Source: an uncultured Clostridia bacterium (lineage in GTDB: Bacteria > Bacillota > Clostridia > RUG12999). From it: a stretch of DNA of 64,000 nucleotides. Positions 3,315-6,761 of this stretch are shown here, one piece after another. The number at the start of each line of letters is the position of its first letter. Position 1 is the first letter of the stretch. The notes under the pieces were generated by a model. That model saw only the letters and a program-made list of their open reading frames with translations. It was not told the DNA's origin and made no database searches. The DNA lies in NCBI GenBank assembly GCA_946555455.1, contig CAMNSU010000006.1, forward strand, positions 1 through 64,000, written 5' to 3'. Both the position numbers and the translations under genes were made by a program.

Positions 3315-3391
3315 GGCCCGGTAGTTCAGCTGGTTAGAACGCTAGCCTGTCACGCTAGAGGTCAAGGGTTCGAGTCCCTTTCGGGTCGCCA
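3315..3391 (+). tRNA. tRNA-Asp (GTC)
   Basis: The cloverleaf has acceptor GGCCCGG/TCGGGTC with G-U pairs, anticodon loop CTGTCAC (anticodon GTC), a T-loop TTCGAGT, discriminator G and an encoded CCA at 3389-3391. It is the first gene of a three-tRNA cluster. Confidence 0.95.
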
Positions 3392-3407
3392 TTTTTTCTT
3401 TGTATTT

Positions 3408-3483
3408 GCTGCCCTAGCTCAGTAGGCAGAGCACTTCCTTGGTAAGGAAGAGGTCGGCGGTTCGAATCCGCTGGGCAGCTCCA
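3408..3483 (+). tRNA. tRNA-Thr (GGT)
   Basis: Acceptor GCTGCCC/GGGCAGC, anticodon stem-loop CTTCC-TTGGTAA-GGAAG (anticodon GGT), U73 and encoded CCA. It starts 16 bases after tRNA-Asp. Confidence 0.95.
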
Positions 3484-3489
3484 TCACAT

Positions 3490-3565
3490 GTGCCATTAGC
3501 TCAGTTGGTAGAGCACCTGACTCTTAATCAGGGTGTCTAGGGTTCGACCCCCTAATGGCGCACCA
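3490..3565 (+). tRNA. tRNA-Lys (CTT)
   Basis: Acceptor GTGCCAT/ATGGCGC, anticodon loop CTCTTAA (anticodon CTT), discriminator A and encoded CCA. It is last in the cluster. A phage/ICE-like gene group follows within 3 kb, and tRNA 3' ends are common integration sites; I could not identify a second copy of this 3' end. Confidence 0.95.
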
Positions 3566-3789: not shown

Positions 3790-4425
3790 ATGTTAGCCCA
3801 ATATCCGTTCCAACTCGCCCCTTTACCTTATGACTATATTGCTTTGGTTCCACATTGTGATCCGGATACATTATATGTGCATTATGATAAAATTTACTCA
3901 CAGGATTTACAAACGCTGAACTACTTGTTAACACAGTATCCGACGTATCAATCATGGTCTTTAATGCAGCTTATAACCGGAAAAATCAATTTACCTACTA
4001 CTGTAGTAAATAACATCAAATATTATGCCGGCAGCGTCTATGCGCATGAATTATTTTTTTGCACTCTTTGCGGTTCACCCACGCCGCCAAGTGGCAGGCT
4101 TGCAAAACAAATTGATAACAGTTACGGTTCTCTTTCCAACTTACAGGATATTGTCAAACAGGCTGCCCTTAATGTGCTGGGCGCCGGCTGGGTGTGGTTG
4201 ATTGCAGAGCAAGACGGCAGTTTACATATTATCATTACCCAAAATTATGAAATTCCTCGCATCAGTAACTCTGTTTGCATTTTTGCGTTAGACGTCTGGG
4301 AACACGCCTATTTTCTCCCTTATCCTGCCGACATCAGCGCCTATATTAACAATTGGTTTTCTGTGCTGGATTGGAACAAAGCAGAAAAAAATTATCTAAA
4401 AGCAATTCAGTCCCCTTCTGCTTGA
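3790..4425 (+). CDS. Fe/Mn superoxide dismutase-like protein with altered active-site second shell
   Basis: This 211-residue protein has the SodA fold signature: LPYDY near the N-terminus, GAGWVWL at 131-137 and DVWEHAYF at 168-175. By eye alignment the four metal ligands are kept (H31, H86, D168, H172). However, the residues that normally tune catalysis are changed. The gateway His and Tyr (E. coli SodA H30 and Y34) are Ile35 and Asp39. The solvent-binding Gln is absent from both usual places (Ser82 and Tyr153). The start has GAAAGGA upstream at about 10 bases. The protein may bind metal but have weak or different activity, so it should not be called a working dismutase without assay. It stands alone on the plus strand after the tRNA cluster, with no clear promoter. 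Confidence 0.8.
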   Translation: MLAQYPFQLAPLPYDYIALVPHCDPDTLYVHYDKIYSQDLQTLNYLLTQYPTYQSWSLMQLITGKINLPTTVVNNIKYYAGSVYAHELFFCTLCGSPTPPSGRLAKQIDNSYGSLSNLQDIVKQAALNVLGAGWVWLIAEQDGSLHIIITQNYEIPRISNSVCIFALDVWEHAYFLPYPADISAYINNWFSVLDWNKAEKNYLKAIQSPSA

Positions 4426-4511
4426 AGGTAAATACAGAGTGTACTCTTTTCCTTCAAAAAAAGCGCGCGCCTTTTGGGTCAGATGGTAAACAGGAAAATA
4501 CTGTAAATAAA

Positions 4512-4552
4512 GGAGAGTCGAATTCCATGTACCGTGCATGGTTCGGCTCTCC
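4512..4552. repeat. Long hairpin beside the TA-flanked element
   Basis: GGAGAG-TCGAA-TTCCATG pairs imperfectly with GCATGG-TTCG-GCTCTCC. It lacks a U-tract, so it is not an ordinary terminator. It abuts the larger multi-stem element that starts at 4559. Confidence 0.6.
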
Positions 4553-4558
4553 TTCGCT

Positions 4559-4835
4559 TAGCCTGACGCTTCCAATTTGAACCCGCCTAAAACGGCGATA
4601 TTTTGGCATCTTTCGGATTGTCGTCTCCCGTAGGCGCCAGCCTATCTGCATCCTCCGCACCAAAATCTGCTCAAAATATCATCCGTTTTAGGTCGCAGAA
4701 TTTTGAAAGAGCAAATTTTTATGCAAGACAAGGCGAAAGCGGAGCTAATAATTGTTTTATTAGCGAGCATTTCAACGCAGTATTGCGGAAAATTTGCCTT
4801 TCAAAATCGGTGTTTAAATCGGAAGTGCCAGGCTA
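4559..4835. mobile_element. TA-flanked multi-stem element, MITE-like or structured RNA
   Basis: No convincing gene lies here. An outer inverted repeat joins 4561-4587 to 4809-4833 (GCCTGACGCTTCC against GGAAGTGCCAGGC at the tips). Inside are two further long inverted repeats. The first is 4586-4605 against 4672-4692 (CCTAAAACGG against CCGTTTTAGG and onward). The second is 4698-4720 against 4787-4808. The second encloses the hairpin GCTAATAA/TTATTAGC at 4744-4764, and the first encloses TAGGC/GCCTA. TA sits at each border (4559-4560, 4834-4835), as a TA target duplication would leave. A TIR-bounded miniature element and a multibranched RNA are both possible. No transposase is present. Confidence 0.6.
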
Positions 4836-4861
4836 TATCTCTGTTTTTACAATCTTTTCTC

Positions 4862-5209
4862 TCACATCCAATATCCCAATTTTCGTCCAACATCATATAC
4901 AATTTGGTCTACCCACCGGTAAACGGTACGTTCACTTGCGCCAAGCTGTAAACCGGCACCGGCAGCGTTATGTGTTTTTTTCCAATAAACCAACTCCACC
5001 ATCTTTGCCTGTAACGGGTCTATGTGCTGCAACACTTTCTCAATTGCACCAACCGTTTGTTCCATTCGCTGCATATACAGGCTATTCACGTAAATCCTTG
5101 GGGCTGTGCCGCTTTGATATTCTTTTAACTTTTGTTTTGTTTCCGGATAGTTTTGAATTTCCCATAATACATAACCCTTCACTTTTTTGTCCATTGTCTG
5201 TACTGTCAT
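4862..5209 (-). CDS. Small ArpU/sigma-70-region-4-like putative phage regulator
   Basis: The protein has 115 residues starting at the ATG at 5209, which has AGGAGG six bases upstream; a longer in-frame start at 5254 has no good site. The C-terminal half (VYWKKTHNAAGAGLQLGASE then RTVYRWVDQIVYDVG) reads as a helix-turn-helix like sigma region 4. The overall size and layout match the ArpU/RinA-type factors that control late genes or integration functions in phages and ICEs. Downstream, the gene ends beside the TA-flanked element. It is divergent from the XRE-ImmA pair, with a shared 380-bp intergenic region holding repeated GACAATT motifs. Exact family is uncertain. Confidence 0.6.
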   Translation of the reverse strand: MTVQTMDKKVKGYVLWEIQNYPETKQKLKEYQSGTAPRIYVNSLYMQRMEQTVGAIEKVLQHIDPLQAKMVELVYWKKTHNAAGAGLQLGASERTVYRWVDQIVYDVGRKLGYWM

Positions 5210-5255
5210 TATTTTTCCTCCTATTCTTTTCCTGTACGGAAAATCTTTATTCAAT

Positions 5256-5570: not shown

Positions 5571-5595
5571 TTCCTATTTAAGGGAAGTGAAAAAA

Positions 5596-5952
5596 TTGAA
5601 CGAACAAAATAATAACCGTCTGGGGCAAAATCTACGGATTCTCCGCAAGGAACGGCAGTGGACGCAAAGTATCGCTGCACAGAAACTAGGGATTTCATTT
5701 TCCACATTTGCGAAATATGAGCGCGGAGACATCAAACCTGACACAGACAAACTTGCACAAATTGCTGATTTATTTGATGTATCTGCCGACTTTCTGCTTG
5801 GCAAAAGCACAATACGCAATGCAAACGCCTTGCCCGGCATGGATCAAGTCTATTTCCGTTTGGCAAAAGGTGCGGAAGAACTGGGTCTGACGGAAGAAGA
5901 CGTTGACGCTATTTTAAATCTCTATCATTCCCACCGGCAGCAAAATCAATGA
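5596..5952 (+). CDS. XRE-family transcriptional repressor (phage/ICE CI-like)
   Basis: Residues ~5-65 form a helix-turn-helix of the XRE/Cro type (LGQNLRILRKERQWTQ, then FAKYERGDIKP and ADFLLGK). The C-terminal ~45 residues are acidic and helical. I chose the TTG at 5596 because AAGGGA lies about ten bases upstream; the in-frame GTG at 5587 overlaps that site. It is followed after 29 bases by the ImmA-like peptidase. XRE plus ImmA is the repressor/anti-repressor switch known from ICEBs1 and many prophages, in which ImmA cleaves the repressor. The GACAATT repeats upstream are its likely operators. An alternative is a stand-alone stress regulator pair. Confidence 0.85.
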   Translation: MNEQNNNRLGQNLRILRKERQWTQSIAAQKLGISFSTFAKYERGDIKPDTDKLAQIADLFDVSADFLLGKSTIRNANALPGMDQVYFRLAKGAEELGLTEEDVDAILNLYHSHRQQNQ

Positions 5953-5981
5953 CATCATGAATCATCGGAGGCAGTGCAATT

Positions 5982-6761
5982 ATGCCAATGCATAACGCAA
6001 AAACCAATTTATATGAACATGTTTCCCATTTGCGCGACCAGCTCCATGTCACGCTGGCTTCCTATCCGCTCAGTCTTACCGGTCTGCCCTTCCGGCATCC
6101 GCTTCAAATTGAGCGCCATCCCTTTCAAACGCCCGGATTTTGTGCGTTGGCATTCGCTGGTGACAAATTCGATACCATTATATTAAACGCAAACCGGAAT
6201 CCATTGGAACAAAATTTTGACTGCGGGCATGAATTGATTCATCTTACCAAACACCGAAGTATAAAGCAGGGTTGTTTTCGTTGTTTTGACAAAGCGCAGC
6301 CAACACAAAATCCATTTATTGAATGGGAGGCAAACGAAGGCGCCGCGGAACTTTTGGTGCCTTACAAGTTATTTCTGCCTGCCGTGTGTGAAACAAGCCG
6401 CATCTATTGCCGCGAGCCGCAGAAGATAAAACCTGCGCTTGCCAAACAGTTCCATGTTACAACAGCAGTGATTGAATACCGTATCCATAGCCTTGCATAC
6501 GAACTTTATCAATACGATATATTAGGTACGGATATTTCTCAAATCGCCTTGCTTTCTCATAACGAAACAAAGCAGCGCCATCTTTCCCATCTGACTGCTT
6601 TTTCCTATTATTGTCCTGACTGTTTATCTTCCATTGTTTCAGGCAATGCAGTCCGCTGTCCCCATTGCGGCGGCAGTTTTCGGCAGAATGCACCGTTTTA
6701 CGGATTAGGGTATCGGCATGACATAGGCGGCGGACATGGCTGCATTGTCATATCCGATTGA
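5982..6761 (+). CDS. ImmA/IrrE-family metallopeptidase with C-terminal zinc ribbon
   Basis: The protein has 259 residues, with GGAGG ten bases before the ATG. HELIH at 83-87 is the zinc-binding HExxH motif, and the acidic stretch EWEANEGAAE (114-123) supplies the third ligand typical of ImmA/IrrE (DUF955) peptidases. The C-terminus adds a CPDC...CPHC zinc ribbon (211-229), which is less usual and may aid protein or DNA binding. It is co-transcribed with the XRE repressor and probably inactivates it by cleavage, as ImmA does in ICEBs1. No integrase, relaxase or structural phage genes are visible nearby, so the module may be a remnant. Confidence 0.85.
   Translation: MPMHNAKTNLYEHVSHLRDQLHVTLASYPLSLTGLPFRHPLQIERHPFQTPGFCALAFAGDKFDTIILNANRNPLEQNFDCGHELIHLTKHRSIKQGCFRCFDKAQPTQNPFIEWEANEGAAELLVPYKLFLPAVCETSRIYCREPQKIKPALAKQFHVTTAVIEYRIHSLAYELYQYDILGTDISQIALLSHNETKQRHLSHLTAFSYYCPDCLSSIVSGNAVRCPHCGGSFRQNAPFYGLGYRHDIGGGHGCIVISD

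Follow-up and report, generated by a model that had tools for sequence, protein, structure and literature searches.

The window analysed here is a stretch of 64,000 nucleotides of an uncultured Clostridia bacterium, and the locus under study lies between two open reading frames (ORFs) whose 3' ends both point toward it (Table 1). It consists of a 277-bp element and of a 57-bp palindrome, the latter ending on the very TA with which the element begins. Three tRNA genes are found in a run upstream, at 3315-3562 of the window (Rfam matches L001 316-389, 409-481, and 491-563). On the other side, an XRE-like regulator ORF is followed by an ORF resembling an ImmA/IrrE-type metallopeptidase (5587-6761), both being named from the look of their sequence only, and these two ORFs, together with the regulator-like one at 4862-5254, may represent the remnant of a mobile element.

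Table 1. Features of the locus, in coordinates of the window (TIR, terminal inverted repeat; R1 and R2, covariance models described in the text)
Feature	Position	Strand	Basis
ORF, 3' end toward the element	3790..4425	+	ORF list
Palindrome of 57 bp from TA to TA, zero-arm form belonging to a second family with the TIR TAAGCRAAGGAGAGTCGAAC	4504..4560	not assigned	Sister-family copies
Complete two-arm mobile element, TA-273 bp-TA	4559..4835	+	Seven full copies in the own genome; empty sites
Left TA of the target duplication, on which the neighbouring mini-hairpin ends	4559..4560		Sequence; duplication demonstrated at other copies
Left TIR TAGCCTGACGCTTCCAATTTGAACC	4559..4583	+	Pairs with 4811-4835
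Arm 1, structured hairpin module (sense strand: minus) directed toward the left end	4586..4698	-	R1 match; fold and G-T bias on the minus strand
Centre between the two arms, GGTCGCAG	4691..4698	+	Sequence and fold
Arm 2, structured hairpin module (sense strand: plus) directed toward the right end	4694..4807	+	Covariance models R1 and R2
Conserved core of arm 2, GCAAGACAAGGCG...CAACGCAGTATTGC	within 4694..4807	+	
Right TIR, imperfect reverse complement of the left TIR	4811..4835	-	
Right TA of the target duplication	4834..4835		Sequence
ORF, helix-turn-helix / phage-type regulator-like, 3' end toward the element	4862..5254	-	ORF list; name from the look of the sequence only

In the original prediction, the locus was described as a multibranched, TA-flanked element of about 275 bp, with a closed outer stem and two internal arms carrying apical hairpins. 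This element is real and measures exactly 277 bp including both TAs (4559-4835). The folding of positions 4400-4900 (501 bases) recovers the announced architecture, namely an outer stem of 25 bp, two long internal arms, and their apical hairpins, with an energy of -166 kcal/mol, compared to a mean of -114.7 (sd 7.3) for shuffled sequences, none of which was as stable out of 100 (z = -7.0). An ungapped repeat finder recovers only part of this pairing because the stems contain bulges. As expected from its two-fold symmetry, the full element displays no strand preference in terms of folding energy (8/20). Its ends are TAGCCTGACGCTTCC, and 17-20 of 20 end bases match between the two ends in the own-genome copies (about 16-20 of 20 in other families). 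According to the ORF list, the element encodes nothing. Besides, it contains three promoter-like matches, for 1.1 expected, and a search for terminators inside it found none, neither of these results being informative.

The own 3.1-Mb draft genome harbours seven full copies, 97-100% identical and located on seven different contigs, as well as truncated ones, and many more copies, of 94-97% identity, are present in the congener G002. The nine full copies that were aligned all have a TA-to-TA length of 277 or 278 bp and lie between unrelated flanks; the search of the own and related genomes proposed with the prediction thus gave dispersed copies. One copy of the congener (L039) splits a metallophosphoesterase gene, and, when its two flanks are fused at a single TA, the reading frame is open across the junction and includes the metallophosphoesterase motif ...PCYYVTGNHEYWSG... 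(...CYYVTGNHEYW...). In the same line, the anticipated empty sites with a single TA were found in relatives for L029 (in two of them), L028, and L004, while the sites of L005, L006, and L007 are neutral, since in the relative the TA itself has been altered. As for the window copy, it is older: G002 appears to share it, the flanks matching contig ends that break inside the element, and G001 has neither the element nor the hairpin at this site. With its TIRs, its TA target-site duplication, and its many dispersed non-coding copies, the element is a MITE with TA borders, as had been proposed. Plasmid and phage records yielded no copy of the window element, and neither a recurrent neighbour gene nor a partner protein was found beside the copies.

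Some observations concern the insertion sites themselves. At 57 of them, the commonest bases outward from the TA are A, G, and C (54, 42, and 37%), identical to the first bases of ends of the TAAGC type, a signal that is weak because the boundaries of a few copies may be misplaced. An ABC transporter gene has a copy within a few codons of its end, and a new stop codon is supplied there by the end of the element (L006 near 1502; L050 near 1500). In G000:C21, a solo end directly adjoins GGAGGATGTCCCATG, and its last bases look as though they had been incorporated into a ribosome-binding region.

The long hairpin reported beside the element is also present, but has to be redrawn as a separate 57-bp palindrome (4504-4560) that shares the TA 4559-4560 with it. 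Since the element starts exactly at the last TA of this hairpin, the data suggest that it was inserted there. Two-arm elements with the TAAGCRAAGGAGAGTCGAAC ends exist in the own genome (299 bp in G000:C9 and 280 bp in C3), along with further ends-only copies of 48-57 bp, and a congener carries a one-arm form of this sister family (161 bp).

The relation between the two arms was evaluated with R1, a covariance model of arm 2, which also recognises, on the minus strand, arm 1 of the window element (22 bits, E = 5e-4, filters off). In a two-arm element of the sister family, R1 matches both arms, on opposite strands, with 72.5 and 51.4 bits. Such matches of paired arms on opposite strands imply that the two-arm element is made of two inverted copies of one hairpin module, and each arm points outward to its own end. 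A direct alignment of the left half with the right half, made without a model, is not significant in most families. Depending on the element, zero, one, or two arms are present.

R1 detects the arm in 77 of 391 Clostridia genomes belonging to more than 20 families, and the positive genomes usually have several copies among the matches scored, of which there were at most nine per genome. In a phylum-wide sample of Bacillota that includes the class of the window, the arm is found in 13 of 399 genomes, a few of them outside Clostridia. The two-arm plan, of 273-279 bp, recurs in many Clostridia families with different TIRs; the TIRs vary by lineage, and both ends within one element always match each other. 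One-arm relatives measure 161-164 bp overall, those of G592, G568, and G726 being about 163 bp long with ends such as TAGTACCTTGTAACCCCTAAA; the first two are complete genomes of 3,069,953 and 2,943,336 bp. In the isolate Acetivibrio sp. MSJd-27, forms of 120-160 bp and 30-58 bp recur. Some one-arm elements of G592 and G568 (L267 3882-4046, L268, and L269) have about 50 additional bases in the apical part of the arm, a feature that the long (about 155 bp) Correia elements of Neisseria also show.

In terms of pairing, 95% of the cells pair in 38 diverse arms, 37 of 39 pairs are changed on both sides, and the covariation score reaches 0.568, compared to 0.07-0.13 for slid structures, figures that have to be read in the light of related arm sequences and of R1-fitted alignments that lean towards the structure. 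A template-switch correction keeping palindromes perfect could mimic such covariation, but would not explain the strand bias. On the arm sense strand, 85 G-T pairs are counted versus 16 A-C pairs (46 versus 16 when two wobble-dominated columns are removed). In independent MAFFT alignments, arm 2 favours the plus strand (52 G-T, 7 A-C) and arm 1 the minus strand (48 G-T, 20 A-C), and, the biases being opposite within one element, genomic strand effects cannot explain them. For other lineages, greater stability in the sense orientation is seen in 17 of 17 arms, which is a descriptive count because this orientation is defined by a conserved motif, and the sense strand is better by about 22 kcal/mol in four of five Streptomyces arms. 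With DNA energy parameters, the asymmetry is smaller but goes in the same direction, so that the folding of single-stranded DNA (ssDNA) would also give a strand bias. The fact that, for each arm, the best fold is that of the strand pointing outward from it favours a role in single-stranded form, RNA or ssDNA. These data therefore favour a model in which selection would act on the single-stranded arm, most simply as RNA, folded ssDNA being the alternative. No match to Rfam was obtained in the window element or its relatives, nor, apart from one discarded match to a miRNA family, in the Streptomyces elements. The structured RNA that had been put forward as an alternative to the MITE gains support from the strongly covarying stems and the strand-specific wobble pairs, as a complement to the MITE rather than a competitor.

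An alternative without any RNA role would see in the arms the DNA sites of an enzyme that reads structure, either acting on ssDNA (HUH or REP/RAYT-like) or being a serine recombinase with a TA crossover. The two inverted hairpins resemble the REPIN plan, the strand bias suggests that the wobble strand would be the one carrying the 3' end at each terminus, and the TA could be a 2-bp crossover core. However, HUH elements do not duplicate their target, the excess of wobble pairs goes beyond what DNA energies would require, and no enzyme was found; this alternative is therefore considered unlikely. REPINs are like the window element in having two inverted copies of a hairpin module, and they are moved in trans; they are not known to leave a TA duplication. 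REPs measure 20-40 bp (PMC3733652).

The arm shows a likeness to the core of the Neisseria Correia elements, and the sequence presumed to be this core was tested. It gives 100% matches at 40 or more places in N. gonorrhoeae records, and is found at 81-85% in Cupriavidus metallidurans and Eleftheria. In addition, the arm core of one of the one-arm elements described above shows 81-88% identity with palindromes that are flanked by TA and lie between genes on plasmids of Streptomyces. The second model, R2, which was built with 24 Bacillota arms only, recognises in a Neisseria contig a complete 105-bp Correia element (39.5 bits, E = 8.5e-8 over 76 kb, both strands) and a second one with 24.5 bits, most other copies giving a weak match or none, so that a single one is strong. 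It also finds, at the correct place and strand, a further Correia copy (E = 0.0025) and, weakly, four Streptomyces loci (E = 0.002) and Cupriavidus (E = 0.011). By plain alignment, the Correia core is identical to the Clostridia arm of G145 at 49 of 70 positions (70%), no shuffle out of 400 being as good, and to the window core at 43 of 73 positions, for which one shuffle out of 400 was as good.

A convergent origin of this similarity, through palindromes that would have acquired the AAGGC/CAACGC motifs by chance or by a shared enzyme preference, would agree with the single high-scoring Correia copy and with the completely different ends. It seems doubtful, nevertheless, in view of the R2 score, of the identity to G145 that shuffling did not reproduce, and of the same TA borders, place, and strand in all matches. 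The window arm thus appears to be the same module as the Correia hairpin. Both share the core GACAAGGCG..CCGCAG-hairpin-GGCAAGG..CAACGC..GTA.TGG, and Correia elements (CREE, NEMIS) resemble the window element in being mobile, intergenic, and non-coding, with TIRs and with TA ends that are duplicated (PMC2229807, PMC2649163). They differ by their single arm and their size of 105-157 bp (69-157 bp for a single core), as against two inverted arms and 277 bp, and by their 26-bp TIR, TATAGTGGATTAA in Neisseria, which the window element lacks. The window element works in the manner of a Correia element, yet its different ends and number of arms keep it from being filed as one, and the best name appears to be that of a two-arm, Correia-like orphan MITE, apparently a new two-armed variant of a cross-phylum family. 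A bolder and so far tentative proposal, which is probably not correct as a whole, would be that this family of Clostridia, Streptomyces, and Neisseria is defined by its conserved single-stranded fold rather than by its ends: a TA-cutting machine would read the folded RNA or ssDNA and leave the ends free to diverge.

As to the means of mobilisation, the original prediction assigned the MITE to the Tc1/mariner-IS630 kind, a label that rests only on the TA and is not supported. Such an ordinary MITE would be an internally deleted copy of a local IS630, moved by the transposase of the latter and with an incidental fold, and the TA borders and duplication, the TIRs, and the size would all suit it. 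Yet the DDE_3 domain (IS630; PF13358) was detected in none of eight arm-bearing hosts with fresh copies; DDE_Tnp_1 (PF01609) and DDE_Tnp_1_2 (PF13586) were likewise not detected in eight and ten hosts, respectively, so that no IS4/IS5 transposase was found either. The search for a full-length transposon with the same ends, proposed with the prediction, gave no longer same-ended element in the own genome (TIR scan), in the isolate MSJd-27 (80 TIR sites), or at the 76 end sites of a complete genome. The solo TIRs of G035 and G000 led to no autonomous element, the solo ends being truncated copies or hairpins. These absences of partner and transposase are suggestive and not final, because draft assemblies lose repeats. 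Furthermore, the arms and the length are kept across families while the TIRs differ, which is not expected of independent deletions, and an IS630 origin is therefore judged quite improbable. In this context, RUP and IS630-Spn1 are like the window element in terms of TA insertion and MITE size, RUP being 107 bp long and its host containing an IS630 that matches it (PMC2229807), whereas no IS630 was found in the eight arm-bearing hosts. Finally, a structured RNA acting in cis, as a gene or a regulator, and inherited vertically would account for the covariation and the strand bias, but is hardly tenable, being contradicted by the unrelated flanks, the empty sites, the gene disruption, the nested insertion, and the many copies.

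Taken together, these data make us fairly confident that the element is a non-autonomous MITE that inserts at and duplicates TA, with TIRs of about 25 bp around two inverted copies of an arm module apparently common to Correia and to other Bacillota, Streptomyces, and Cupriavidus elements, that is probably moved in trans and whose arm would be selected as a single strand. Most likely, a host-encoded or separately encoded enzyme making TA insertions would move it. The arm sequence and pairing would be kept by selection on the single-stranded form, probably an RNA produced when host transcription reads through a copy. Owing to the two-fold symmetry, whichever side the read-through comes from, the RNA would contain one arm in the correct orientation beside the complement of its partner. 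By analogy with the Correia RNA, which is bound or cleaved by RNase III (PMC2649163, PMC10969869), the probable effect would be RNase III binding or cutting and a control of the flanking mRNA.

Other repeats offer partial parallels. ERIC (IRU, RU-1) of enterobacteria is, like the window element, a TA-flanked, structured MITE, without known transposase (PMC2229807); as a family member it was rejected, real E. coli copies being matched neither by R2 nor by R3, a model that includes Correia. In one E. coli ERIC (L304 1001-1089), AAGGCGG is seen by eye opposite AACGCAG, as in the arm, and neither model scores it. The BOX repeats of Streptococcus pneumoniae are modular, palindromic, and mobile, with a variable number of modules (PMC3049150). 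They are likened to the window element by description only, and their boxB modules are tandem and direct, whereas the arms of the window type are inverted and at most two.

Correia elements have so far been studied mainly as a feature of Neisseria, and their mobilising mechanism is not reported in the literature (PMC2649163). If their core is a module also present in elements of Clostridia, of other Bacillota, and of Actinomycetota, the enzyme can be sought in culturable hosts that have fresh copies. The arm, which covaries, is strand-biased, and is absent from Rfam, is a candidate structured RNA, and the window family, with its recent insertions and empty sites, provides a system for a direct test of the role of the fold.

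Some minor observations were made outside Clostridia. An Rfam match to MIR1858 in Streptomyces was discarded, being far below its cut-off. The records NZ_CP119140.1 and NZ_CP119142.1, entered as plasmids in PLSDB, are N. gonorrhoeae chromosomes of 2.17 Mb. Lastly, a one-arm element of Streptomyces atratus (L284 2353-2432) adjoins a group II intron match (RF01999, above cut-off) in an unannotated stretch.
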